This document shows, one piece after another, positions 249 through 15,212 of a stretch of 64,000 bases of DNA. Every line of letters begins with the position of its first letter. Position 1 is the first letter of the stretch. The DNA is from Burkholderiales bacterium (GTDB lineage Bacteria; Pseudomonadota; Gammaproteobacteria; Burkholderiales; Burkholderiaceae_C), in contig JACPUE010000058.1 of NCBI GenBank assembly GCA_016192425.1, positions 62,001 to 126,000 on the forward strand. The letters are read 5' to 3'. Below the pieces are notes generated by a model. The model ran no database searches, had not been told where the DNA came from, and saw nothing but the letters and a program-made list of their open reading frames with translations. A program made the translations under genes and the position numbers.

Positions 249-280
249 TTGACTCTGGACTCTAGTCCAGACTTTACATT
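249..280 (+). promoter_or_regulatory. MerR-type operator/promoter for merTP
   Basis: A -35 box TTGACT (249-254) and a -10 box TTACAT (274-279) are separated by 19 bases, the long spacer typical of MerR-activated promoters. The spacer holds a perfect dyad, CTGGACT (255-261), two bases, AGTCCAG (264-270). It lies between divergent merR and merT, 35 bases before the merT start. The role follows from how the MerR family works; the boxes and dyad are seen directly. Confidence 0.8.
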
Positions 281-314
281 AGCCTATCCCTTGTTGGGTT
301 GGAAGGATTTGTGC

Positions 315-656
315 ATGGACATTAAAGTCAAATCTTCAATGGTCGCAGCTGCGCTGGCAGCCGTTGGCGCTTCTGCGTGTTGCGCTGGACCTCTCATCCT
401 TTTGTCGCTCGGCATTGGCGGGGCCTGGATTGGCAACCTGACCGCGCTCGAGCCCTACCGACCCATCTTCGTGGCCTTGGTCGCGGTGTTCATGGTCATG
501 GCTTGGCGACGGCTTTACCGCGAGCCGACGTGCGCTCCCGGAGATGTCTGCGCCATCCCTGAGGTGGCCGCGCGGCAACGAACCATCTTTTGGGTCGTGT
601 TGGCAATGGTCTGCCTCATGGCGGCATCACCCTGGCTTCTTCCCTTCATCTTTTAA
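315..656 (+). CDS. merT: MerT mercuric ion transporter
   Basis: This 113-residue inner-membrane protein moves Hg(II) from MerP into the cytoplasm. It has three hydrophobic helices (about residues 9-35, 44-62, 90-112). A vicinal cysteine pair (ACCAGP) sits in the first helix and a second cysteine pair (TCAPGDVCAIP) in the loop between helices 2 and 3, as expected for MerT. I chose the ATG at 315 because GGAAGGA at 301-307 is a good ribosome binding site; the frame is open further upstream but that stretch is the promoter. It is followed 10 bases later by merP. No merA follows in the window. Confidence 0.9.
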   Translation: MDIKVKSSMVAAALAAVGASACCAGPLILLSLGIGGAWIGNLTALEPYRPIFVALVAVFMVMAWRRLYREPTCAPGDVCAIPEVAARQRTIFWVVLAMVCLMAASPWLLPFIF

Positions 657-666
657 GGACACCACC

Positions 667-948
667 ATGCGTTCATATCTTTTGGCCCTCTCGATTTTCC
701 TTTCAATCAACGCTTTCGCTGGAACGCCAAAGACAGTCACCCTCGACGTAAAGAACATGACTTGTGAGCTTTGTCCCGTGACGGTCAAGAAGGCTTTGGA
801 GAAGACGCCTGGCGTCGCAAAAGCCCAAATCGACTTCGCGAAGAAGACCGCAACCGTCACCTTTGACCCCGATGTCGCCACCGTGGCGGCTTTGGCCCAG
901 GCCACAACCAATGCTGGATACCCCTCCACTGCGCGGGAGGTCAAGTGA
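667..948 (+). CDS. merP: MerP periplasmic mercury-binding protein
   Basis: The 93-residue product has a signal peptide (about residues 1-18, cleaved after INAFA) and one heavy-metal-associated domain with the metal site NMTCELC near residue 33, matching the MerP GMTCxxC signature except Asn for Gly. MerP captures Hg(II) in the periplasm and hands it to MerT. AAGGA at 656-660 serves as ribosome binding site. The stop codon overlaps the GTG start of the next gene (GTGA at 945-948), so the two are translationally coupled. Confidence 0.9.
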   Translation: MRSYLLALSIFLSINAFAGTPKTVTLDVKNMTCELCPVTVKKALEKTPGVAKAQIDFAKKTATVTFDPDVATVAALAQATTNAGYPSTAREVK

Positions 949-2487: not shown

Positions 2488-2889
2488 CTAAACGCCTGTG
2501 CCTTTTGGTTGAAGAATCGAAACCACTTTGCCAGTAGCCATGCCTTTGAGTAAGGCTACTTCGTTCAGAAGCACTTGGTTGACAGATGCAAGTTTGGCCA
2601 AGTCCGCGCGCGCCTCTGCCAGTTCCTGCCTCAGAGCACGGTTGACCTCGCGCTCACGAACCAGCGCATCATGCTTGGCATCGCGCTGAGTTCGCGTCGC
2701 CTTGCCTACCAGCCCTCTGATTATTTCGGCGAGGTCCGGGTAGGTGTTGTGAATCAGTGCAGGGGTGACTCCAGCCAACTTCGCAACCGCAGAGATGGAC
2801 ACCTTGCTCTGGCCAGCCTGCACCTGCGCAATGGCCTGCTGAATTTCATCAACGGTCTTTTTTCGGCTACGAGCCTTGGGGTCACTCAT
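2488..2889 (-). CDS. Small HTH plus coiled-coil protein, TnpC-like
   Basis: The 133-residue product has a basic N-terminus (PKARSRKK), a TetR-like helix-turn-helix (about residues 32-60, with AVAKLAGVTPALIHNTYP) and a long charged coiled coil (about 75-120). Small HTH/coiled-coil proteins of this kind accompany multi-recombinase modules such as TnpC of Tn554 or the small partner of gamma-mobile-trio elements; which group it belongs to cannot be settled by eye. I chose the ATG at 2887-2889 because GGAG lies seven bases upstream and the ATG overlaps the stop of the preceding fragment; an ATG four codons upstream (2901) is possible. umuC follows 21 bases later. Confidence 0.6.
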   Translation of the reverse strand: MSDPKARSRKKTVDEIQQAIAQVQAGQSKVSISAVAKLAGVTPALIHNTYPDLAEIIRGLVGKATRTQRDAKHDALVREREVNRALRQELAEARADLAKLASVNQVLLNEVALLKGMATGKVVSILQPKGTGV

Positions 2890-3138
2890 TTGGAGCTCCA
2901 TTCAGATTTGACGTATCCGGTGTCAGTAGAACACCAAGGTCTACCATCACTTGGCGCGCCCATTGAACGTCACGCTCAGCACGTTGCCTGACCGCTGGGC
3001 CAGCATCGTCAATGGTCAACAATTCGGTCTGTTGCGCATAGATGCCTTTCCAGATCTCGGCAAACGACTCATCAATGACGCCGTTCTTGCATCCAACGCA
3101 CCGGGTCGCTTCATACAGACCCGCGCCACCACACCCCT
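2882..3138 (-). pseudogene. C-terminal remnant of a gene (possible recombinase), cut by the IS
   Basis: Translating leftward from the IS edge at 3138 gives 84 codons open to a TGA at 2882-2884. The product contains CGGAGLYEATRCVGCKNG, with C-x2-C spacing that suggests a zinc site, then an acidic and charged tail. The stop overlaps the ATG of the HTH/coiled-coil gene (ATGAGTGA), so the two were once a coupled operon. No start codon or upstream part exists: the other side of the IS is non-coding. From its position in front of a TnpC-like gene I infer the end of a tyrosine recombinase (TnpB or GmtY type), but no catalytic motif remains. Confidence 0.5.
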
Positions 3139-3156
3139 TGAATCGCCCCGGATTCC

Positions 3157-4032
3157 CTAGACACTTTTGAGCCGTTGGGAATGGCGTCGTTCGAACTCTA
3201 CCGGCGAAGTATCTCCGGCAGTGCCGTGGCGCCGCTTTGGGTTGTAGAACATCTCGATGTAGTTGAAGACGTCGGCCTTGGCGGCATCGCGCGTTAGATA
3301 GATCTGGCGGCGGATGCGTTCGCGCTTGAGCAACTGGAAGAAGCTCTCGGCCACGGCGTTGTCGTGGCAGTTGCCGCGACGGCTCATGCTGCAGATCAGC
3401 TTGTGGTCGCGTAGGAAGTCCTGCCAGTCATGCCCAGTGAATTGACTGCCTTGATCCGAATGCACTGTGACTGGCTGCTCGGGTCGACGACGCCACAAAG
3501 CCATCACCAGCGCATCGAGCACCAGCCCGGTATCGATGCGGCTACCCATTGACCAGCCGACCACCTGACGCGAGAACAGATCGACCACCACGGCCACGTA
3601 CAGCCAGCCCTCATGGGTGCGGATGTAGGTGATATCAGTCACCCAGGATTGATTGGGCTGCGCCACGGTGAACTGGCGCTGCAGGTGGTTGGGCGCGACG
3701 ACCGCGGGCTTGCCACCACGCATGCTAGGGCGACGGCGGTAGCCGGTCTGCGAGCGCAGTCCTTCGAGTTTGAGCAATCGGGCCACGCGGTGCTTGCCGC
3801 AGGACTCGCCTAGATCGCGCATGTCCAGGGTGAGCTTGCGGTAGCCGTACACGCCGCCGCTCTCCAACCACGCGTGCTTGAGCAGGCCCAGCACCCGTTG
3901 ATCGTCCTGGGCACGTGGGCTCACCGGATCGGCCTTCCAGGCGTAGTAGCCGCTGGGGTGCACCGTCATGATCTTGCACATGCGGCGCACGCTGTGCTCG
4001 TGTTCATGCCGCTCGATAAATGCGTACTTCAC
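3157..4032 (-). CDS. IS3-family transposase OrfB (DDE domain)
   Basis: The 291-residue product is the catalytic part of the transposase. It has the HTH_21-like N-terminus (VRRMCKIMTVHPSGYYAW) and an integrase core with the DDE triad visible in WVTDITYI, VHSDQGSQF and AVAESFF. It starts inside the end of orfA (4-base overlap, different frame). In this family the active enzyme is the OrfAB fusion made by -1 frameshifting. No internal stop or frameshift is seen, so the element may still be active. Confidence 0.92.
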   Translation of the reverse strand: MKYAFIERHEHEHSVRRMCKIMTVHPSGYYAWKADPVSPRAQDDQRVLGLLKHAWLESGGVYGYRKLTLDMRDLGESCGKHRVARLLKLEGLRSQTGYRRRPSMRGGKPAVVAPNHLQRQFTVAQPNQSWVTDITYIRTHEGWLYVAVVVDLFSRQVVGWSMGSRIDTGLVLDALVMALWRRRPEQPVTVHSDQGSQFTGHDWQDFLRDHKLICSMSRRGNCHDNAVAESFFQLLKRERIRRQIYLTRDAAKADVFNYIEMFYNPKRRHGTAGDTSPVEFERRHSQRLKSV

Positions 4033-4899: not shown

Positions 4900-5709
4900 A
4901 TGGGTGCTGATAAATCATATTTTTCGGATCCTGGTAAGAATTTTGAGTTAATAGCAACGCTGGAGCAAAAAGTGACCTACCAACTGACGGCAAAAATTGA
5001 TGATGAAGTCGTCGAGGTTGGCGGAGCATTGGCAGAGCTGAAATTTGGTGAAATGAATTCGTTAGCCTCAGCTCTGAAAAATATGCTGACCAGCGCGCGT
5101 CTATGTGAGCCTGAGCTGTTGTTGATTGAATCTTCTGCACTTAGTAAACCTGGTGGTTCACTACTGCAGTCGCGCTTGTGTTGTTATGCGGAGGAAGGAG
5201 CTTTTGATCGAGTCAAGGCAGGTCTTCTTATTAGGGCGACGCTGCAGAAAATGCTGGGGCGCTCTGCCCAAAATGATCCTAACTATCTAGACGACACACA
5301 ATTTTCAGAAGAGGAGAGGGAGTGCGTGCAAACTGTTGTTCAGGATGCATTGAGAAGCCTGGCAAACAGAAAGATCAAGGCTCCTATCCACGTTAATTTC
5401 TGCGGTTCAAATATCTGTTTGGAGGGAAAGTTTGCGCCACGGGCGAACATGGCTGTTTATGAACCGAAGCAGATTTCCCTTTTTGGTCGGATGCTTGGAT
5501 TCGACACGGGTAGAAAAATCCTGCTGATGCAGATAGAGAGAAAGGTTGTAGATATCCACTATCTTGAGGATGAGCTTCCCCTTGTGCAGGTTGCCGAATT
5601 GGCTCAGCTCGGCTCAGAGACGCACGTTCGAGCGCGACAAACACTAGATCATCTGGGTCGTGAAGTTCTTTGTTATTCTTGCTTTGCGGAGCCCCGCGCG
5701 GTAGCTTAG
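4900..5709 (+). CDS. Unrecognised 269-residue protein in the integrated element
   Basis: I do not recognise this protein. A clear ribosome binding site AAGGAG (4886-4891) precedes the ATG. The product is soluble, without signal peptide or membrane segment, mixed alpha/beta, with an acidic middle (DDTQFSEEERE) and a cysteine pair (RLCCYA). The coding sequence is clearly lower in GC than the chromosome to the right, which fits acquisition. It is convergent with the giant recombinase gene, 11 bases apart. It may be cargo or an accessory of the recombination system; no function is claimed. Confidence 0.6.
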   Translation: MGADKSYFSDPGKNFELIATLEQKVTYQLTAKIDDEVVEVGGALAELKFGEMNSLASALKNMLTSARLCEPELLLIESSALSKPGGSLLQSRLCCYAEEGAFDRVKAGLLIRATLQKMLGRSAQNDPNYLDDTQFSEEERECVQTVVQDALRSLANRKIKAPIHVNFCGSNICLEGKFAPRANMAVYEPKQISLFGRMLGFDTGRKILLMQIERKVVDIHYLEDELPLVQVAELAQLGSETHVRARQTLDHLGREVLCYSCFAEPRAVA

Positions 5710-5720
5710 TATTTTTGTGA

Positions 5721-8700
5721 CTACGTGGTCAGCTTGCTTTGGTTGGCTGACCACGATAACGCCAAAGAAATAAGAAAAATTAGCATAAATTCATGACTTG
5801 AGCGAACAGATCCTGTGCCTCTGAGTCCAATCGCCGCACAGCGATCAATAATGCTTGCTAGCGGAAATCCACGCCGAACTGGATCCACTTGAAGTTTAAT
5901 GCCTTCGAGCTTCAATGTTTGTGTTGTAATTAATTGGAGTGAATTGTCGTCAGCGAATTTTTGTAGAGTCAATTCCCGGGAATTCGTGAAAAGTCGGAAA
6001 CTATCATTTTCAAGCTTCCAGCAGTTAATGACTTGTTTCATGAATTCAAAATGCTCTTTCTTCCACAAAAGCACCTGCCGAGAAGGACCAACGTAGGTGC
6101 TGATTTCCTCGCCAGCGTACGGGAAACTGGAGGATAGGGACTCATCCCACTTCACTAATTCTGTATGTCGTACCAGTTCAGCCCAGCGTGTCGGTTGAAT
6201 GCCAGAAAGCCAGTCAAGTGGGTGCGATCCTGATTTTTTTCTTGAAACTATGTGGCCCGTTTCGATCAATAAATTCTCTAGATGCTTTGCATTTTGGTCT
6301 GAGATATTTGTCGCCAACTGAGCGATGCCGAAATTTCTTCGCAGAACAAGCATCCGAACAAATTTGAGGGCCTCCGTAGCTGTGAGAGGACTTGTGGTAG
6401 TCGTGACAGAGTCTTGTTCAAATGTGCTTAAGTAGTCATGGATTAACGTGATCCTGTTAAGGTCAATCAACTTTTCCTGAAGATATTTGGACCTATCCTG
6501 TTGAGTGAATTTCTGAAGCTGAACGGAGCGGTTTGCCAAATTCGGAAAGTAATGTATGTAACTCCGAAATGTTGTGCTTGGTTGTGCATGACCCAGTAGT
6601 CGGGCGACAGCCCACGAACAGCGGCGTGTTGATTCCTCACTTCCCAGTACGAGGCGCCGCGCATTCTGGTGTGCGGCGCTGCCGATATCAAACGGATTCA
6701 AATTCGTACTGAGGCCCAAGAGATCAGCCACCCTGTTCGCAAACGTATGTCGGTTGTGATGCGGGCTGAGTTGATCGTTGCGGGTTACCTGTTGAATGAC
6801 AGTACCAATTCTTCTGAGCAGTCCTCGCCGCGCTTCCAAACCATCTAGCCCAAACTCGGTCGGGAAGAGTTCGTCTTTGTCATGCAAGATAGGGGTGGCT
6901 TGCCGTACCAAGAACCATTGCTCGATGATTGACCGCTCGTGCGCCGTCAAGCGAAAGAGGAGTGGAACTTGGCGACGGCTTGCTGGCGATTTCAGCCGGC
7001 GCAAATGATTGCTCCGAACCATGAGCACCACACAGTCCGGCGCCGGCTCCGTCCAGTCAGATCGCAACAGACATGCGGCCTCCATCCCGCGCAAGCCGAA
7101 TCGGTACATCAACAGATTGATGAACGCGCATTGAAGATCGCCCACGGATGCTTGGGCTGGAATGGGCGCAAGACAAGCATTGATGCGGAGGTACTCCAGC
7201 TCTGTGATGCAGCCAGCGGATACCAACAAGCTGGGCCCATCTGAAAAAATTTCTGACCAATCTGGGTTTTCGACTCCGAACGCAGCGTTCATCGTTTGGT
7301 GGAAGTCCTTCAGGCACTGGAGGGCTAGGTGGAGGGTCTTGTAGCCATTCCTTGTTACCTCTGAGCCGGACTCTGGTGACGACTCGGTTGGATCTGGAAT
7401 GCTCGAACGCGCGTCCATCAAACGAAGGTAGAAATCTGTGACATCTTCTTCTTCGCACGCCAGGAGATCGTGGTCGAAACCGACGGCCAGAAAGCACAGT
7501 GACAAGCTGCTGAAATATCTGTCGACAGAACTGACGCGAAGAAGGGTGCCCTTGCGGGTGCTTCTACGTAAGAGGTGCCGCACCCACTCCACCAGGAGAA
7601 GGCAACTTCTACCGGCGGACCCTCGGTATTGATCCAGCGCTCTGCAAAGTGCCGCGTCCATATTTCTGCGGCCAATCCCACCAGCGGTAGCGGCGGCGTG
7701 TTTTCTGAATATCGTCCGCACCTCGCCGAATAGCTTCTTGCTTGCCTCCTGTGAGATGGCGGGATCTGGCATTCCGGTTGGTGGCGAATGGTCTGCCGTA
7801 TCTTTGTCAACCAGAGCGGATAGATGAACTTCATGCTGGTCTGGAGATATCCTGGGTGGGCCTTGCTCGTCCTCGAAAATTTCCGAGCCGCTCTCCGTTT
7901 CGGATGCTTTGAATGTTCCGAAATCACCGGCCGCACCGTGCCGCAGTCTGATCCAGTCGCGATGCGGCAATCCGACGGATTGGAGGTCGCCATTCAGATA
8001 GGCCGTAAGTGAGGCGGGGAACTCCAGAAGGTTTGCTTGATGGACCAGTTGCGCGATTTCAGAGATCGTTGCAGTGGCGGTGTTTATGTGCGGGGCCAGC
8101 AGCCCGATCTCTTTGCAGAGCTTTTGCCACTGAACGGGAGGACTGCTCTTGCCCATGTCCAGGCCACGTTTTGTCGTACTGGCGCGGGCAAGGAAGTTCG
8201 CTGCGGCAACACTGATGGGGTAGCGTTTGACGGCGCAGCCCGAATCGATGTCCAAGTCAGGGGAATACTCCAGATAGTAGGATTGATCGAAATGCACAAG
8301 CCGAAAATTCTTGGCCACGAGCAGGTCTCGGAGCAGTGGAGGCTCTGTCACCCTAGACTCAAGAACGGTGAGCGCCGTGCCATAGAAAAGACATTCGCGA
8401 AGCGAGGTGCGGGAGAGCTCCATCGCTTCAAGGATGGGCTGCAGAGCATGAAGTGCCGCCGCTACCTTTTGGCGGCTGCCGATAGCTTGGTGCGAGAGCA
8501 ACGTGCGCTCCTCCAAGGCCGGCAGGTAGCGCTTTTTGAGACGTGGTCGAGTCCCATCCGCGCACCAGCGTTGACGAATCCAATCCTGAAGCGCTTCGTA
8601 TCGAAGGGAGCCGAGTGCTCGCGGGGTGCCCGAGTCGTTGAGCAGCATGCGTTGGCTCAGCATCTCCCACTCGTCGGCTGAGATTGAATCGACAGGGCGC

Positions 8701-11333
8701 TCGCCAACAAAACGAAGAATCTCACTTTGTGCTTCAGTCAGTGCGTCAGCGTGGCGTTTCGCGCGTCGAGTCTCACGGGCTGCGCTGCCGAATTGCGTAC
8801 CCTCTACAAGGCACGAATTGCCTGGCGTCAGGTCGGGAAAATCAAGGGGTGTGGTGTCCCAGCCAGGCGCTTGAAGTGGGGCAAACTGAAGCGCGGCGAA
8901 GAGCTGTTCAATGGCCGGGCGGATAGCCTCCAAATCCTGAAGCCTCACCCTCGACGAGAACCGACCGTATGTGGCCGTTCCCCCTTCTGCATGCCCGAGG
9001 AGGCCGTCGATGATCTCGGGGTCCTGACACAATCGGCGAAGGCTTGTGCTGGCTCGATGTCGGAATAGATTCCAGGGCAACGGCCAGGAGAAGACCTCCA
9101 TGGAGTCCAGCGTCACTTCAGATACTTCGAACCATTGCAGGCTTTTTCGTGCAGGGTCTTCTCTCAGGAAGAAAAGTGCTGGCATCGCGGTGCTGGTTGC
9201 TCCCGCAGATAGAGCCTGCAGCTCTTGAGAGAGAGGGGGATCCTGGCTGCTGAGGGAGGAGGCGAGGCGACGAAGGTGGGGCAGGTAGAAGTCTTGGAAG
9301 AGCCGGAGCACCTCGCTGGGAAGAACCACCATACGGCCGTCATGACGTTGGGAGGCAACTTTGTCCACGACGAACAAATACCTTTCGTCCCAGTCGACCT
9401 GCCCGAAGGACTCCAACGGGCTCGACACCGGCCGAATTGCAGTCGCGGCAAGTATTGCTGCGGTCATGTAGACCGTCACCGCGTTGTGATGGACAAGCCA
9501 GTTCTCTGCCGGGCCTGCCGCCAGACTGCCAATGTGCTGACGTACACGTGCAATTTCTTCGCGCAGCAATGGGTCAAGCGGGCTCAGTTCACTGCCGGCG
9601 ATGTTTTCTTGTGCTTGCGCGTTCAGTGGGAACAACGGAGGTGGCGCGAGACCCGCAGCGGTTATTCCTCGGTGGACTTCTGCTGTCTGAAAAGCTGCAT
9701 AGGCACAAGATCCCGGCAAACCACTTCGCGAGCTGCTCGCAAGCAGGCGACCGAGTACGGGGTCACCGGTTGCCTCGAAAACGCCTTGCTCAAGGACGTG
9801 TGCGAGCATGCCTGAGCGAACGCGTTCAAGGCCGGGCGTGTGTTTGCACATGTCGTTGAACATTGCCTCCGGCGAATTGTGGGCCGGTGACGACGGCCAA
9901 AGATCCAGGAGTGCGCGTGCCGACAGGCGCCCCGAGCCGTGCTGAGAAATAATCGCCGCAACCTCGTCTGGAAGCTGCACTTGAAGTTGGCCAGCGAGGG
10001 GTTCCAGCCACTGCGATGTCGCAGACGAAGCCTTCCATCCCCTCGGATGCCGGGGGGCGAGTTTCTGCAACGTCAGGGTGTCGGGGTCGATGCTCCAGTC
10101 CGGCCCACATTGACTGGAAAAGGAGATGTCGGTCGCTGCCATCCGAACGGATTTGGCCGTGTAGACAGCAATCCAAATGAATGCGCCCAAGAGGCGAAAA
10201 CTTTCGGGTGCATCTCGCGCGATTGCAGCCTGCCACCAGTTTTCCAGACAAGCCCGTTCAAACTGATTGAGGCGGTTGGTACTGAACGGGAGGAATTGCT
10301 GGTCTTCGATGGTGGCGAGAAGCACACCACGCGCTTCATGTTCCTGAGCCACCGGATTGAGGCGCTCATCAATCTTTGCTTCCCAGCATTCGGTCCCTTC
10401 GCCGCCATCCTGGTCGATGGATCTTCCTGTGATGGGCTGGGGGTCTTCCGCCAAAATTTCGCCAGAAGAAAACACAGTCGGCGCTGTACTTTGAGCGGAT
10501 GTTCCCCAAGGATGCTGACGGCTGGAAAACAAGCGGGCATATTGAGGGAAGGCACCCTTCGCGGTCAGAAGTTCGGCTCGGTCGGCCCGGATCGGCTCAG
10601 ATTCACAGTAGCTGCGCAATGTCCGGAGCAGTTTGATATGAGCCTTGACGCCGGGCCCCTCGTTGGACGCCAGTTCTAGCTTGCCGACCAGAGCCGCAGC
10701 TTCCCAAGCCAGATGCTGTCTATATATAGATAGTGATCCACTGGGGGGGCGAAGCCCAGCGAAAAGATCCCGCCAATCCCAGTCGCCAGAGACTGCTTGG
10801 CGCAAGCTCCACGACACCTCGACGAGCCGTTTGTCCGGCTCGGAGCCCTCATAGATGGCTGAGATGAACTGGATGAACGTCCAGGTTCGAAGTGTCTCCA
10901 ACCGGAGGTGGGCGGCTGCGTCAGGGTGATAGGCCCTGGGCACGCACAGCGCGAGGAGGGCAAATTCGCGCAGTGTGCCGCGCGGAAGCTGCGCGGCCAC
11001 CTGTTGGGCCGGAGGCAAATATGGATACAGACGGGCAATGGTTGGGGATGCCGCCAGGGATTCCATGAGCCGGCACAGCTCCGAAGTCGGCTCGGATTCA
11101 TCGGCCCATGAGGAGGCCATCTTCAACGGCACAGACTGGCGCAAGTACTCAATGATTGATCCGACGTACTCAGGATTGGCGCCGGTTTTTGACGCATCAA
11201 GTACCGAAAGCAGCGGACGAGTCAGCCCCAGTCGGTTGGCCCATTCAAGCAAAGGATGAAGCGAGACTGGAAGCCCAAAGGTCTCAAAAGTCTGTCCGCC
11301 CTGGTCATCCGAAATCCCGGGTCCGTTGTCCAT
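5721..11333 (-). CDS. Giant tyrosine-recombinase protein with two catalytic regions
   Basis: The 1870-residue protein has two regions with tyrosine-recombinase boxes. The C-terminal one (about residues 1390-1600) looks complete: YRFGLRGMEAACLL (first Arg), a Lys-rich strand (HLRRLKSP), HHNRHTFAN (His-x-x-Arg type) and LLGHAQPSTTFRSY with the His and the candidate nucleophilic Tyr. The other (about 600-800) has ATAIRPVSS, VVDKVASQ, NLFRHRAST (Asn where the first His is usual) and LLGHAEGGTATYGRF. About 270 further residues follow the second domain. Most tyrosine recombinases have 300-450 residues. It starts about 130 bases from the tRNA-fMet remnant and is probably the element's integrase. A GmtZ- or TnpB-like assignment is possible but unproven. 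Confidence 0.75.
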   Translation of the reverse strand: MDNGPGISDDQGGQTFETFGLPVSLHPLLEWANRLGLTRPLLSVLDASKTGANPEYVGSIIEYLRQSVPLKMASSWADESEPTSELCRLMESLAASPTIARLYPYLPPAQQVAAQLPRGTLREFALLALCVPRAYHPDAAAHLRLETLRTWTFIQFISAIYEGSEPDKRLVEVSWSLRQAVSGDWDWRDLFAGLRPPSGSLSIYRQHLAWEAAALVGKLELASNEGPGVKAHIKLLRTLRSYCESEPIRADRAELLTAKGAFPQYARLFSSRQHPWGTSAQSTAPTVFSSGEILAEDPQPITGRSIDQDGGEGTECWEAKIDERLNPVAQEHEARGVLLATIEDQQFLPFSTNRLNQFERACLENWWQAAIARDAPESFRLLGAFIWIAVYTAKSVRMAATDISFSSQCGPDWSIDPDTLTLQKLAPRHPRGWKASSATSQWLEPLAGQLQVQLPDEVAAIISQHGSGRLSARALLDLWPSSPAHNSPEAMFNDMCKHTPGLERVRSGMLAHVLEQGVFEATGDPVLGRLLASSSRSGLPGSCAYAAFQTAEVHRGITAAGLAPPPLFPLNAQAQENIAGSELSPLDPLLREEIARVRQHIGSLAAGPAENWLVHHNAVTVYMTAAILAATAIRPVSSPLESFGQVDWDERYLFVVDKVASQRHDGRMVVLPSEVLRLFQDFYLPHLRRLASSLSSQDPPLSQELQALSAGATSTAMPALFFLREDPARKSLQWFEVSEVTLDSMEVFSWPLPWNLFRHRASTSLRRLCQDPEIIDGLLGHAEGGTATYGRFSSRVRLQDLEAIRPAIEQLFAALQFAPLQAPGWDTTPLDFPDLTPGNSCLVEGTQFGSAARETRRAKRHADALTEAQSEILRFVGERPVDSISADEWEMLSQRMLLNDSGTPRALGSLRYEALQDWIRQRWCADGTRPRLKKRYLPALEERTLLSHQAIGSRQKVAAALHALQPILEAMELSRTSLRECLFYGTALTVLESRVTEPPLLRDLLVAKNFRLVHFDQSYYLEYSPDLDIDSGCAVKRYPISVAAANFLARASTTKRGLDMGKSSPPVQWQKLCKEIGLLAPHINTATATISEIAQLVHQANLLEFPASLTAYLNGDLQSVGLPHRDWIRLRHGAAGDFGTFKASETESGSEIFEDEQGPPRISPDQHEVHLSALVDKDTADHSPPTGMPDPAISQEASKKLFGEVRTIFRKHAAATAGGIGRRNMDAALCRALDQYRGSAGRSCLLLVEWVRHLLRRSTRKGTLLRVSSVDRYFSSLSLCFLAVGFDHDLLACEEEDVTDFYLRLMDARSSIPDPTESSPESGSEVTRNGYKTLHLALQCLKDFHQTMNAAFGVENPDWSEIFSDGPSLLVSAGCITELEYLRINACLAPIPAQASVGDLQCAFINLLMYRFGLRGMEAACLLRSDWTEPAPDCVVLMVRSNHLRRLKSPASRRQVPLLFRLTAHERSIIEQWFLVRQATPILHDKDELFPTEFGLDGLEARRGLLRRIGTVIQQVTRNDQLSPHHNRHTFANRVADLLGLSTNLNPFDIGSAAHQNARRLVLGSEESTRRCSWAVARLLGHAQPSTTFRSYIHYFPNLANRSVQLQKFTQQDRSKYLQEKLIDLNRITLIHDYLSTFEQDSVTTTTSPLTATEALKFVRMLVLRRNFGIAQLATNISDQNAKHLENLLIETGHIVSRKKSGSHPLDWLSGIQPTRWAELVRHTELVKWDESLSSSFPYAGEEISTYVGPSRQVLLWKKEHFEFMKQVINCWKLENDSFRLFTNSRELTLQKFADDNSLQLITTQTLKLEGIKLQVDPVRRGFPLASIIDRCAAIGLRGTGSVRSSHEFMLIFLISLALSWSANQSKLTT
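5724..5755. repeat. 10-bp perfect inverted repeat at the end of the recombinase gene
   Basis: CGTGGTCAGC (5724-5733) and GCTGACCACG (5746-5755) are perfect complements with a 12-base loop. The hairpin covers the last codons of the recombinase gene and lies 14 bases after the stop of the convergent 269-residue gene. No T-run follows on either strand, so it is not a textbook terminator, though it may stop both transcripts. Confidence 0.5.
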
Positions 11334-11460: not shown

Positions 11461-11506
11461 GCTCATAACCCAAAGGTCGGAGGTTCAAATCCTTCTCGCG
11501 CAACCA
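11461..11506 (+). tRNA. 3' part of initiator tRNA-fMet (attachment-site remnant)
   Basis: The 46 bases begin in the anticodon stem (GCTCATAACCC, anticodon CAT) and run through the variable and T arms (GGTTCAAATCC) to the acceptor end GCGCAACCA. The A at position 72 is the initiator signature. The bases before 11461 do not form the D arm or the 5' half of a tRNA. This is what remains at one end when an element integrates into a tRNA gene; the intact copy should lie at the far left end of the element, outside the window. Confidence 0.8.
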
Positions 11507-11530
11507 ATCAGATGCGGCCCTGCCGCAAAA

Positions 11531-11624: not shown

Positions 11625-14600
11625 ATGATGGATGAGCAAGCGCAGACCCTGGCCAGCACCCTGCAACCGGGGTGGCTGGCGCTGCATGGCAACCGCATGG
11701 AAGACCTGGCCCAGACCGTGGCCGAGTGGTTGCACCGCCATCCGCTGGAGCCGCTGGAGCCAGAGGTGGTGCTGGTGCAGAGCAATGCCATGGCCGAGTG
11801 GTTCAAGATGACCATGGCGGCGCGCAGCGGCATCGGTGCGGCGCTGCGGGTGGAATTGCCCTCGCGCTTTCTGTGGCGCAGTTACCGGCAGGTGCTCGGC
11901 GCGCAGGTGGGCGCCGACGCGCCCACGGATAAAGCCGCGCTGACCTGGCGGCTGCTGACGCTCCTGCCTGTGCTGACCGAGCAGCCCGAATACGCGCCGC
12001 TGGCGCACACATTGCGCAGCACCAGCTCCCACGACCACTACCTGCTGGCCCGGCGTCTGGCCGATCTGTGGGACCAGTACCAAGTCTATCGACCCGACTG
12101 GCTCGACGACTGGGCCCACGGGCGCGATGGTCTGCGCGGCCCGGGGGGCGAGCTTTCGCCTTTGCCCGAAAGTGAGCGCTGGCAGCCTGCGCTGTGGCGT
12201 GCGGTGCTGCAGGGGCTGGCCGAGGCCGAACGCCAGGCAGTGCGTCCGCAGGTGCACCGGCGTGCGCTGGATGCCTTGCGGCAGGAGCGCCTTCCTGCGC
12301 AGGGCGCCCCATTGCCGCGCCGTGTCGTCCTGTTCGGCATGGCGCATGTGCCGCAGCCGGTGCTGGACTGGCTTTGCGCCATGGCGCGTGGCAGCCAGAT
12401 TCTGCTGGCCATCCCCAACCCCTGCCGTTACCACTGGGCCGACATCATGGATGGCCGCGAGTGGCTGCGCATGCGCCAGCGGCGCCTTCCGGCGCGGGCG
12501 GGGCGGGATCTGGCCCTGGTGCCGCTGGAGCAGATGCACCTGCATGCCCATCCGCTGTTGGCTGTCTGGGGGCGCCAAAGCCGCGATTTTGTGCGCCAGC
12601 TCGACGCCTACGAGGAGGCTTCTGCAGAGCCTTCGCTGTGGGGTATGCCGCGTCTGGACCTGTTTGACGAGGGCGAGGCGCAGGACGCGCCCCTGCTGCT
12701 GCAGGTGCAGCACCGCATCCGCGACCTGGTGCCTTTGGCCGAGCATCCGCAGTGCCTTGTGGCCCCTGACGACCGCTCAATCCAGTTCCACGCGGCGCAC
12801 AGCGCGCTGCGCGAGGTCGAGGTGCTGCACGACCAGCTGCTGGAACTGCTGGCGCACCCGCCGCAGGGCAGGGCGCTGCACCCGCGTGACATCGTGGTCA
12901 TGGTGCCTGACATCGACGCGATGGCGCCCGCCATCCGAGCAGTCTTTGCGCAGTACCCGCCGGACGATGCCCGCCACATCCCCTTCGACATCGCCGACCA
13001 GAGCCCGCGCGCCAGCCAGCCGCTGATGGCCGCCGTGGAATGGCTCTGGGGCCTGCCCGCGCGGCGCTGCACCCTGAGCGAGCTGCATGCGCTGCTCGAC
13101 GTACCTGCCCTGGCGGCCCGCCTGGGCGTGCAGCCGCAGGACCGCGACACCCTGGTGTCCTGGATGGCCCAGGCCGGCATCCGCTGGGGCCTCACGCAAG
13201 ACCACCGCAATGCGCTGGACCTGCCCCTGTGCGGCAGCTACAACAGCGCGCACTTTGGCCTGCAGCGCATGCTCCTGGGCTATGCCGCAGGTGCGGCCAG
13301 CTTTGCCGGTATCGAACCCTGCACTGAGGTCGGCGGGCTGGACGCCGCCCTGGTCGGCGCCCTGGCCGCCCTGCTCGAACGCCTGGAAGCCTGGCGCCGC
13401 GAGGCCAGCGAGCCCGCCACGCCCGGGCAATGGGCGCAGCGCCTGCGCGCCCTCTGGGCGGCGTGCTTTGCAGCCACCGACGAGGGCGACCGCCAGGTGC
13501 TCGAAGCCCTGAACGCCGCGCTGGAGGCCTGGCTCCAGGCCTGCGACGTCGCAGGCTTTGCCCAGGCCCTGCCGCTGGAAACTGTGCAGGATGCCGTGAC
13601 GCACTGCCTGGAACTGCCCGTAACCCAGCAACGCTTCCGTGCCGGGGGGGTCACCTTTTGCACGCTCATGCCCATGCGGGCGATCCCCTTCGAGGTCGTC
13701 TGCCTGCTGGGAATGAACGACGGCGAATACCCGCGCCGCACGCCGCGCAACGACTTCGACCTCATGGCCCAGCCCGGCCAGGCGCGCCCCGGCGACCGTT
13801 CGCGCCAGACCGACGACCGCCAGCTCACGCTCGACGCGCTGCTGGCAGCGCGCCGTGTGTTCTATGTGAGCTGGACCGGGCGCAACGTGCGCGACAACAC
13901 CGAGCAGCCGCCCTCCGTGCTGGTGGCACAGCTGCGCGACTACCTCCAGGCCGCCTGGGGCCTGCAGGTGCTGGACGAGCGCACCACCGAACACCCGCTG
14001 CAGCCCTTCAGCGCACGCTACTTCCAGGGCGAAGCGGGCTTGTTCACCCACGCCCGCGAATGGCGCGAAGCCCATATCCGCGCGCCCGCAGGCGCCCCAG
14101 AGGCTGTGCAAGCGCTGCCGCCGCACGGCGCCGCTGCACCCTTGGCCCTGCGCGACCTGGCCGACTGGATGCGTCACCCGGCACGGTACTTTCTGCGCAC
14201 GCGCCTGGGCGTGGTGTTCGACCGCGGCGACGATGCGCCGGAAGACGCCGAGCCCTTCCACCTGGCGGGGCTGGAGAACCACACCGTCGCGCGCCAGATG
14301 CTTGACCACCTGCCCGCCGACTGGGCAGCCTTGCCCGACAGCGCACCCCGGCAGCACCTGGGCCAGGCCCTGCAGCGCCTGCGCCGTGCGGGCCTGCTGC
14401 CCCTGGGGGCACCGGGCGAACAGCTCGTCGCCCAGTGGGACGCAGAGTGGCTGCCGGTGCTGCAAACCTGGCAAGCCCTGCAGCGTGCCCATGCCCAGCC
14501 CGCCGCACGGGTGCAGGTCTGCCGAACGCTCCAGGATCCAAATGCTATTGATTTGATAGCTGCTTGCGCTTATCAGACGGGCGCAAAGGCGAAAAATGAC

Positions 14601-15212
14601 CATCAATCCATATCGGCGCCCAGCCTGCAGGACTGGCTCGACGGCCTGCGTTGCAACGCAGCGAGGCCGGCCGTGTGGATGGCGCTGAGCCCCTCGCGCC
14701 TGCTGCGCGACGCGAAAAAACGCAGCCTGCGCACCGACCTGCTCATCCACCCCTGGCTGTGCAGCCTGGCCGCAGCGGCCAGCGGCACCGCGCTGCAAGG
14801 GCTGCTGGTGGCGCGCGACGTGTGGCTGGCATGGGAGCCGCTCGCACCCGAAGCCGCCCGTGCCCAGCTCGACCTCTGGCTGCACGCCTGCAGCCAGGGC
14901 CAGAGCGCCCCGCTGCCCCTGCCGCGCCGCACGGCCTTGGCGCTGCTGGAGAACGAATCCGCCGCACGCACCGCCTACGAAGGCAACAGCCAGCAGGACG
15001 GTGAGGTGCAAGACCCGGCCTGGGCACGCTTTTACCCAGACTACGACGCACTGGCCGCAGACGGCCGCCTGGCGCAGGCCGCCCAGGCCCTGTGGGCGCC
15101 GCTGGAGCAGTGGGCCCACACCGCCGTCCGGGTGCACGACCATGGCGCCACCACCGCCACCACCGCCACCACCGCCACCACTGCAGCGGGCAGCACGGAG
15201 GCTTCCCTGTGA
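11625..15212 (+). CDS. recC: RecC, exodeoxyribonuclease V gamma subunit
   Basis: The 1195-residue protein is the Chi-recognising, non-ATPase subunit of RecBCD, which processes double-strand ends. It begins with the conserved RecC segment GWLALHGNRMEDLAQTVAEW and contains VEVLHDQLLELLAHP and VCLLGMNDGEYPRR, typical of the family. It is a little longer than E. coli RecC (1122). Two odd features account for part of this: an in-frame dispersed repeat near residues 973-992 and an Ala-Thr-rich tail from a 9-base tandem repeat. Its stop overlaps the recB start. The tRNA-fMet terminator lies upstream, so a promoter should sit around 11560-11620. Confidence 0.92.
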   Translation: MMDEQAQTLASTLQPGWLALHGNRMEDLAQTVAEWLHRHPLEPLEPEVVLVQSNAMAEWFKMTMAARSGIGAALRVELPSRFLWRSYRQVLGAQVGADAPTDKAALTWRLLTLLPVLTEQPEYAPLAHTLRSTSSHDHYLLARRLADLWDQYQVYRPDWLDDWAHGRDGLRGPGGELSPLPESERWQPALWRAVLQGLAEAERQAVRPQVHRRALDALRQERLPAQGAPLPRRVVLFGMAHVPQPVLDWLCAMARGSQILLAIPNPCRYHWADIMDGREWLRMRQRRLPARAGRDLALVPLEQMHLHAHPLLAVWGRQSRDFVRQLDAYEEASAEPSLWGMPRLDLFDEGEAQDAPLLLQVQHRIRDLVPLAEHPQCLVAPDDRSIQFHAAHSALREVEVLHDQLLELLAHPPQGRALHPRDIVVMVPDIDAMAPAIRAVFAQYPPDDARHIPFDIADQSPRASQPLMAAVEWLWGLPARRCTLSELHALLDVPALAARLGVQPQDRDTLVSWMAQAGIRWGLTQDHRNALDLPLCGSYNSAHFGLQRMLLGYAAGAASFAGIEPCTEVGGLDAALVGALAALLERLEAWRREASEPATPGQWAQRLRALWAACFAATDEGDRQVLEALNAALEAWLQACDVAGFAQALPLETVQDAVTHCLELPVTQQRFRAGGVTFCTLMPMRAIPFEVVCLLGMNDGEYPRRTPRNDFDLMAQPGQARPGDRSRQTDDRQLTLDALLAARRVFYVSWTGRNVRDNTEQPPSVLVAQLRDYLQAAWGLQVLDERTTEHPLQPFSARYFQGEAGLFTHAREWREAHIRAPAGAPEAVQALPPHGAAAPLALRDLADWMRHPARYFLRTRLGVVFDRGDDAPEDAEPFHLAGLENHTVARQMLDHLPADWAALPDSAPRQHLGQALQRLRRAGLLPLGAPGEQLVAQWDAEWLPVLQTWQALQRAHAQPAARVQVCRTLQDPNAIDLIAACAYQTGAKAKNDHQSISAPSLQDWLDGLRCNAARPAVWMALSPSRLLRDAKKRSLRTDLLIHPWLCSLAAAASGTALQGLLVARDVWLAWEPLAPEAARAQLDLWLHACSQGQSAPLPLPRRTALALLENESAARTAYEGNSQQDGEVQDPAWARFYPDYDALAADGRLAQAAQALWAPLEQWAHTAVRVHDHGATTATTATTATTAAGSTEASL
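14541..14600 (+). repeat. Dispersed repeat (family 1) inside recC
   Basis: The stretch GCTATTGATTTGATAGCTGC (14544-14563) continues with TTGCGCTTATC and matches four intergenic copies in this window at 22055, 38906, 49729 and 56076. It is read in frame as NAIDLIAACAYQTGAKA without disturbing the gene, unlike the surrounding GC-rich coding sequence. Confidence 0.75.
15146..15181 (+). repeat. 9-base tandem repeat at the recC 3' end
   Basis: About four units of a CCACCGCCA-type 9-mer encode a Thr-Thr-Ala run near the RecC C-terminus. Because the unit is a multiple of three, changes in copy number would keep the frame. Confidence 0.7.

Follow-up and report, generated by a model that had tools for sequence, protein, structure and literature searches.

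XerC and XerD act at dif as a heterotetramer whose two strand exchanges are divided between two active sites that are not identical, and in Flp each catalytic unit lends its tyrosine to the pocket of its neighbour, so that cleavage takes place in trans. The subject of this report is P0001, an open reading frame (ORF) for an 1870-residue protein in a window of 64,000 nucleotides (the whole stretch of DNA analysed, positions 62001-126000 of contig C59) from the 3.67-Mb, 68-contig genome of a Burkholderiales bacterium. P0001 lies at one end of a 46.9-kb island, and we think it somewhat probable, from domain and residue comparisons, that it is the integrase of this island, with one composite active site formed by two tandem domains (D0 and D1) and a second, self-contained site in another domain (D2). 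It is an intact representative of an integrase family that is widespread and whose active site is probably divided; its function we infer. P0001 resembles XerC/XerD in that D0, D1, D2 and a core-binding domain match profiles of Xer-size proteins, and differs in that its family has both sites in one chain or in two adjoining genes, one of the sites being without a tyrosine of its own. Flp subunits are identical and complete, whereas the donor and acceptor in P0001 would be complementary, degenerate tandem domains.

Several described elements encode more than one recombinase-fold protein. The GInts, in the islands covered by the part of PMC5385486 drawn on here, have four separate genes, ginABCD, including the GinD factor, and att repeats of 10-11 nt; they resemble the P0001 island in needing several recombinase-fold proteins together and in being large islands with adaptive cargo (PMC5385486), but the P0001 island uses a tRNA 3' end with a 48-bp repeat, and in the window only a separate ginC-ginD-like remnant was met in place of a ginABCD operon. 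SE elements, in the sections of PMC10214605 consulted, have four genes in the order intA-tfp-intB-srap, a 6-bp footprint and a Tfp protein without the R-H-R-Y motif. As in P0001, a degenerate recombinase-fold protein is encoded ahead of an active large recombinase, but D1 keeps most of the motif bar the tyrosine, Tfp being compared here by its description only. In the same sections Tfp and GinC both count as proteins that have the recombinase fold but not the catalytic motif, and that may do no more than bind DNA (PMC10214605); on the degree of GinC degeneracy the consulted parts of PMC10214605 and PMC5385486 disagree. As these sources portray them, GInts and SEs, with several recombinases of which one is degenerate, are nearest to P0001 in concept. 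The SE gene order was not encountered in the 80 loci analysed here (the window and 79 others, taken from a larger number of matches, some being close relatives or from the same genome), which hold one to three genes in the order D0-D1-..-D2, conserved neighbours having been sought in the first locus set. Archetype RIT elements have recombinases of 315-410 residues, all with the tyrosine, and Tn554 is described as having no counterpart of Tfp (PMC10214605, same sections). RIT elements and Tn554 TnpABC share with the P0001 family the presence of more than one tyrosine recombinase per element, and the RIT layout of three consecutive recombinases of 315-410 residues, all with the tyrosine, was not encountered among the gene sizes and domains of the family. 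No description of a protein with the architecture of P0001 was found in open-access PubMed Central full text, which omits most subscription papers.

Recombinase domains of P0001

The following parts were recognised in the chain:

5721-11333, minus strand: P0001, 1870-residue multi-domain tyrosine recombinase, proposed island integrase (open frame, domain profiles, position at attR)
10524-11276, minus strand: N-terminal helical region, residues 20-270 (helices in the AF2 model)
9648-10301, minus strand: D0, residues 345-562, degenerate recombinase catalytic fold with tyrosine
9699-9701, minus strand: codon of Y545, proposed nucleophile given to D1
8838-9581, minus strand: D1, residues 585-832, with R634, K658, R667, N755, R758, H781 and S793, no conserved tyrosine
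7899-8516, minus strand: D1.5, residues 940-1145, which may be one more degenerate recombinase fold, the fourth (weak; helix and strand order in the AF2 model)
7278-7631, minus strand: D2 core-binding domain, residues 1235-1352 (matched by hhalign to the N-terminal part of Xer-size proteins, E=1.2e-8)
6498-7256, minus strand: D2, residues 1360-1612, complete active site R1415, K1448, R1454, H1525, R1528, H1582, Y1592
5754-6416, minus strand: C-terminal region, residues 1640-1860 (profile HC, recognised in part of the family)

The ORF, on the minus strand, has an ATG start and zero internal stops across its 1870 residues, the length given at these coordinates in an earlier annotation of this DNA (hereafter the first-pass annotation). 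The motifs it quoted are all found in the translation, AIRPVSS, NLFRHRAST and GHAEGGTATYGRF in a first catalytic region and FGLRGMEAA, HHNRHTFAN and GHAQPSTTFRSY in a second, and its view that one chain has two recombinase regions is upheld by the profiles, the two being independent and kept in relatives; what it overlooked is a third recombinase-like domain, D0 (residues 345-562), lying upstream. Profile comparison places three or more recombinase catalytic domains in the chain, D0 coming first, then D1 and then D2, with the core-binding domain before D2. The D0 and D1 profiles detect an integrase family that is seen weakly, and mainly at D2, in single-sequence searches of Pfam, PHROGs and NCBIfam. 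With P0001 alone, Pfam gave one match at E<=1, Phage_integrase at residues 1405-1534 (E=2.5e-4), its score of 21.3 falling under the curated cut-off of 27.1 bits; NCBIfam gave XerC (E=0.001) and a PHROG integrase matched residues 1271-1610 (E=6.6e-12). For the D1 region of the single sequence nothing was returned from Pfam or PHROGs, and NCBIfam gave a weak XerA-type match (residues 757-786, E=0.24). Of the two regions named in the first-pass annotation, the second is recognised both by Pfam (under the cut-off) and by profile, and the first is recognised by profile but not by Pfam in the single protein. There was no match to GmtX, GmtY or GmtZ in NCBIfam at E<=1, the presence of those models in the library being unchecked; none to viral contigs in a single scan with P0001; and none from PADLOC for the four proteins given to it.

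D2 is a complete tyrosine-recombinase catalytic domain as judged by its residues, which supply the whole R-K-H-x-x-R-H-Y set. Among 66 non-redundant sequences R1415, K1448, R1454 and R1528 are each present in all 66, H1525 in 63, H1582 in 64 of 65 and Y1592 in all 65 that have a letter at that position. The D2 profile matched Xer-size proteins at E=1.3e-20 and, in the PDB, XerC-like, XerA and XerH sequences (best E=1.3e-11). AF2 models were made for the two halves of P0001 (mean pLDDT 74 and 68, pTM 0.66 and 0.39), in which we read a recombinase-like order of helices and strands, and Foldseek matched the C-terminal half to XerH, Cre and lambda Int, the best being XerH (E=9.5e-5, probability 1.00).

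D1 was related by hhalign to 19 Xer-size proteins at E=3.5e-12, against 0.91 for the reversed profile, and a D1 profile built from 35 relatives matched XerC-like (3.1e-8) and XerD (7.5e-8) sequences in the PDB; Phage_integrase was found in 18 of these 35 members at E<=0.1 (best 1.6e-5). A D1-only profile, A5, had matches in 58/381 and 14/78 genomes, counts that include many short frames of about 300-340 residues (E 1.7e-9 to 9e-7); this alone shows the likeness of D1 to recombinases of Xer size. Across 54 non-redundant sequences R634, K658 and R667 are invariant, D657 is kept in 53, R758 and H781 in 52 each (the remaining two being gaps in each case) and N755 in 48. Over residues 345-832 the positions kept in at least 95% of these sequences are D402, Y545, G580, R634, D657, K658, R667, R758 and H781. 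The full active-site set is not found inside D1: its tyrosine is unconserved and its second histidine is replaced by asparagine in 48/54. S793, which stands 12 residues past the active-site H781, where a tyrosine would be expected, is present in 50/54.

The tyrosine that the first-pass annotation had assigned to this region (TYGRF, residue 789) was chosen because P0001 and its near relatives do carry Y789. It is not conserved in the family: tyrosine occurs in 12/54 sequences at column 789, 15/54 at 792, 8/54 at 800 and three or fewer at the other columns from 782 to 800. Within the set of Arg, His and Tyr whose retention in homologues had been put forward as decisive, the Arg, Lys, Arg and His are kept and the Tyr is not. 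The change of His to Asn in the first domain had been correctly noticed, but the asparagine is a family trait (48/54) rather than a loss private to P0001. A first domain using a tyrosine of its own is unsupported, the conserved tyrosine belonging to the separate domain D0 upstream.

D0 was matched by hhalign to D2 at E=2.4e-5 (score 38, where reversed controls scored about 11; a deeper alignment gave 6.5e-5) and to the 19 Xer-size proteins at E=6.5e-7 (reversed control 0.55), control regions from the N- and C-terminal parts of the chain giving 0.61 and 0.053 against Xer. When the alignment of D0 with Xer is extended to the ends, Y545 falls on the Xer catalytic tyrosine; the ends of the extended D0-D2 alignment do not pair Y545 in that way. 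In alignment A11, which comprises 50 of the 66 D0 sequences listed, Y545 is the sole invariant column of 317, and it is present in 36/36 sequences of the first non-redundant set and 54/54 of the non-redundant sequences from both sets together. The A11 profile retrieved four PDB sequences at E<=10, two of them XerA (1.3) and XerD (2) with the tyrosine aligned in both, matches that by themselves are not significant but are specific. On these alignments D1 keeps the catalytic positions bar the tyrosine (with Asn for the second His), the invariant residue of D0 being a tyrosine. The 36 sequences that keep this D0/D1 residue pattern have a median pairwise identity of 17%.

The pattern was also scored in 29 further loci retrieved with the D1-only profile and lying outside the first alignment. 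Frames with D0 and D1 were obtained from 25, and Y545, R634, D657, K658, R667, R758, H781 and S793 are kept in 25/25 and N755 in 24/25; in L164 and L168 D0 lies in a separate frame, with the tyrosine in both, and L172 and L180 were not scorable on their short stretch.

As to the remaining parts of the chain, the N-terminal region (residues 20-270) and the C-terminal region (residues 1640-1860) had no match to recombinase profiles. R178, in the N-terminal helical region, is invariant in 36/36 non-redundant sequences. D1.5 is kept as a possible fourth recombinase fold on the strength of the models; against recombinase profiles it was not significant (E 0.025-0.55 with the smaller alignment, 0.05-0.53 with the deeper one), and its only PDB match at E<=10 was to a ferritin (E=0.43).

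The attachment site at a tRNA-Met gene

The end of the island at which P0001 stands has these features:

11461-11508, plus strand: attR, 48-bp copy of tRNA-Met from the anticodon to the 3' end plus 2 bp (exact repeat)
11625-15212, plus strand: recC-like gene (named by eye), chromosomal flank directly past attR (empty-site comparison)

The 48-bp attR sequence recurs exactly at C59:26582-26629, 46,879 bp leftwards, and alignment places its intact partner in the anticodon-to-3' part of tRNA-Met at C59:26551-26627. In a relative of the same genus (G1345, locus L227) the left flank with the tRNA ends at position 2475 and the right flank begins at 2474, so that the empty site is exact. L228 (G1335) has its left match up to 1527 and its right one from 1554, the latter starting 24 bases into the query, which leaves 26 bases between them. 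ARAGORN found tRNA-Met at the place of the empty site in 5 of the 15 loci scanned (L227, L228, L232, L240 and L243). The empty site in the relative and the 48-bp repeat of the tRNA end together identify the island as a precise 46.9-kb insertion in the 3' end of tRNA-Met, adjoining the recC-like gene. The features of tRNA-targeted islands are present: a gene at one end, a direct repeat of the tRNA 3' end and an empty site in relatives. The start codon of P0001 is 127 bp from attR, close to the 130 bases or so that had been estimated, and the gene reads inwards into the island.

A strict pattern of T-arm plus acceptor was searched for in the 80 loci, taking 1 kb upstream of the recombinase genes as the zone of interest. 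tRNA 3' ends were found at 18 places in 74,954 upstream bases versus 10 in the other 1,251,112 bases; the 18 are spread over 16/80 loci, 17 of them have the same orientation, and 15 of the 18 are, according to ARAGORN, 3' fragments and not complete tRNAs. An earlier run on a smaller number of loci gave 16 places in 860 kb, against zero once the bases had been shuffled a single time. By these counts the family is enriched beside tRNA 3' ends. L199 has a decayed unit of 6.35 kb flanked by tRNA copies that share a 77-bp repeat; the recombinase of this unit is interrupted by an insertion sequence (IS). The proposal of the first-pass annotation that P0001 is the likely integrase of the element gains support from the position of the gene at attR, the empty site and the recurrent neighbourhood of tRNA 3' ends.

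A proposed composite active site and its alternatives

Our working hypothesis is that Y545 of D0 would reach into the R/K/R/H pocket of D1 to form one composite active site, D2 providing the second, self-contained one, so that a single chain would be a built-in heterodimer like the XerC-XerD pair. On one att core, D0/D1 of one chain would cut one strand and D2 the other, and two chains would synapse attP with attB in the tRNA gene; the tyrosine might be donated within the chain or to the next chain in the synapse, as in Flp. A composite site is the simplest reading of a D1 that has all but the tyrosine next to a D0 in which the tyrosine alone is invariant. We infer the donation of the tyrosine, the assignment of strands, operation in cis or in trans and the action of P0001 on its own. 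For the family as a whole we suggest tentatively, at a little under an even chance, a catalytic centre divided between tandem domains, D0 as tyrosine donor and D1 as pocket acceptor, beside a complete D2 and the possible D1.5, as a single-chain pseudo-heterodimer or pseudo-tetramer that fixes subunit order and tyrosine donation. If the D0-D1 site is real, a tyrosine-recombinase active site has been pulled apart, its halves residing in modules that can be separate genes; each strand exchange could then be switched off by one residue, Y545 or Y1592, and which site cuts which strand, and whether the tyrosine acts in cis or in trans, would be directly testable.

Several observations weigh against a D0-D1 site in an integrase of this island. 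D0 had no match to GinA-like proteins or Arm-DNA-bind_2 integrases (E 0.07-0.38), and no member of A11 matches Phage_integrase at E<=0.1. Foldseek matched the N-terminal half model to recombinases at poor E-values only (best 0.78, rank 2), namely integrase 3nkh, XerH, Tn1549 Int and XerD at E 0.78-7.2 and probability <=0.51. The tyrosine count in the further loci is a check rather than independent proof, because those sequences were aligned with a profile already containing the tyrosine and several are close relatives (e.g. L173-L178). No tRNA 3' end lies within 1 kb upstream in 64/80 loci, some contigs ending there. The island also carries a conventional integrase gene, with Arm-DNA-bind_2 and Phage_integrase domains, at C59:54970-56460 (L025:10970-12460), inside the island and outside the window, and such genes occur in the DNA fetched for 21/80 loci.

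It is also conceivable, though on balance unlikely, that D0 and D1 form a non-catalytic scaffold that binds DNA and keeps the synapse together while D2 alone cuts; only one strand per site could then be exchanged, and resolution of the Holliday junction would fall to replication or to the host. The want of a conserved tyrosine in D1 would suit such a role, for which the consulted sections of PMC10214605 suggest a precedent in Tfp of SEs, with its recombinase fold and no catalytic motif; ginC, too, is reported to be essential in the part of PMC5385486 drawn on, though with a motif from which only the first Arg is missing. A scaffold would not need the conserved R, K, R, R and H of D1 or the sole invariant tyrosine of D0, and no relation could be detected between D1 and five GinC-like sequences (E=0.28, thin profile), which have their own conserved R, K, R, H and Y columns.

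That P0001 is a passenger or accessory gene, the island having been inserted by the Arm-DNA-bind_2 integrase or another enzyme, we regard as improbable. Besides the occurrence of such integrases noted above, 14 loci of the first set have one near, five of these together with a small excisionase-like helix-turn-helix (HTH) gene (by eye). In the island the conventional integrase is some 28 kb away from attL and 17 kb away from attR, compared with 127 bp from attR for P0001, and it is just upstream of P0001 relatives that tRNA 3' ends cluster. The 59/80 loci without such an integrase in the fetched DNA point the same way, a weak count because the window itself is among the 59, its island integrase lying beyond the fetched stretch.

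The original proposal of a tandem dimer whose first domain uses its own tyrosine (TYGRF), weakened by the change of His to Asn, now seems very improbable: TYGRF does exist in P0001, spaced from the active-site His much as in real sites, but no column from 782 to 800 has tyrosine in more than the 15/54 at 792. A single-domain recombinase with a long unrelated N-terminus, to which the finding of D2 only by Pfam on the single sequence might point, is contradicted by the matches of the D0 and D1 profiles to Xer recombinases and has practically no standing.

Distribution, gene layout and neighbouring genes

Among named organisms, Acidovorax facilis DSM 649 and Acidovorax sp. NO-1 have the nearest relatives of P0001, at 87% identity; a relative in A. 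soli has 90% identity over P0001 residues 479-1870. An Acidovorax-like host is therefore probable. P0001 had matches in 13/250 genomes of the taxonomic family, its own counted, and a contig search for relatives gave 10 loci, three of them on contigs equal in length to those of L026-L028. Profile A1 at E<=1e-6 had matches in 18/369 genomes of the class and 44/398 of the phylum, counts that take in short frames of about 300-550 residues resembling ordinary recombinases. The set of 80 loci omits L041-L043 (copies) and L030 (a contig fragment). Genome G1327 has six D1 matches, one a short frame, so several elements of the family can share one host. Among 72,556 plasmid records 192 match P0001, 190 of them from Acinetobacter and all at below 60% identity; the matches among the 40 listed cover residues 1245-1640 only, i.e. 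the D2 part. One Acinetobacter plasmid record was inspected and has a gene of 1066 residues (L132:6711-9911).

A single gene holds D0, D1 and D2 in 30/80 loci (counting L040, which is N-terminally cut), such members having about 1700-1980 residues, and two genes split between D1 and D2 are found in 35/80 (including L029, with its stop at another place). D0 is separate and followed by a D1-..-D2 gene in 4/80, separate D0 genes being present in L104, L207, L213 and L216, and 11/80 have partial or other layouts, including L224 with D0, D1 and D2 as three genes. As far as the profiles recognise them, the domains keep their order unchanged whether encoded by one, two or three genes, the order D0-D1-D1.5-CB-D2-C holding wherever parts are recognised, some being unrecognised in some loci. 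In a FastTree phylogeny of D1+D2 (69 loci, 479 columns, midpoint root, branch support unexamined) the two-gene loci, except L029, lie on one side; the opposite side has the one-gene loci, and interspersed with these are the loci in which D0 is separate, a grouping from which we read one old fusion or fission and a later separation of D0.

One further gene accompanies the recombinase:

4900-5709, plus strand: convergent gene for 269 residues, present with the recombinase in close relatives too (relatives at the corresponding position in L026, L038, L039, L040 and L044)

Its product had no family match in Pfam, NCBIfam, PHROGs or PADLOC, and could, as a guess, be a directionality factor or another kind of partner of P0001. 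Genes that repeatedly lie nearby in the first locus set code for an HD-domain protein in six loci (matched to Pfam HD in L103) and for small HTH proteins in five and four; such genes recur at L102, L103, L106, L118, L129 and others.

At 2488-3157 (minus strand) the window has a GInt-like remnant cut by an IS3-family element; it retains a ginC-like 3' end together with a ginD-like gene of 137 residues. The ginD-like gene has weak DUF6262 and TetR_N matches under the cut-off, and relatives of the remnant sit in ginABCD-like operons, which led to the idea of a GInt origin for P0001. This was rejected: D1 gave E=0.28 against the five GinC-like and E=0.57 against three GinB-like sequences and was not significant against GinA-like proteins (E=0.28), ginA, ginB and ginC having been assigned in the relatives by gene order and not against published sequences. 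GinA-like proteins do match D2 (E=7.1e-10), which we read as general recombinase homology. The cargo of the island, at C59:36766-53261 and window positions 249-948, looks by eye like metal resistance: copper/silver efflux, a two-component system, a metal ATPase and mercury genes. A UmuC-like polymerase gene lies at 1168-2466 of the window (minus strand), and a similar second one, named by eye, nearby in the island at C59:60537-61703 (minus strand).

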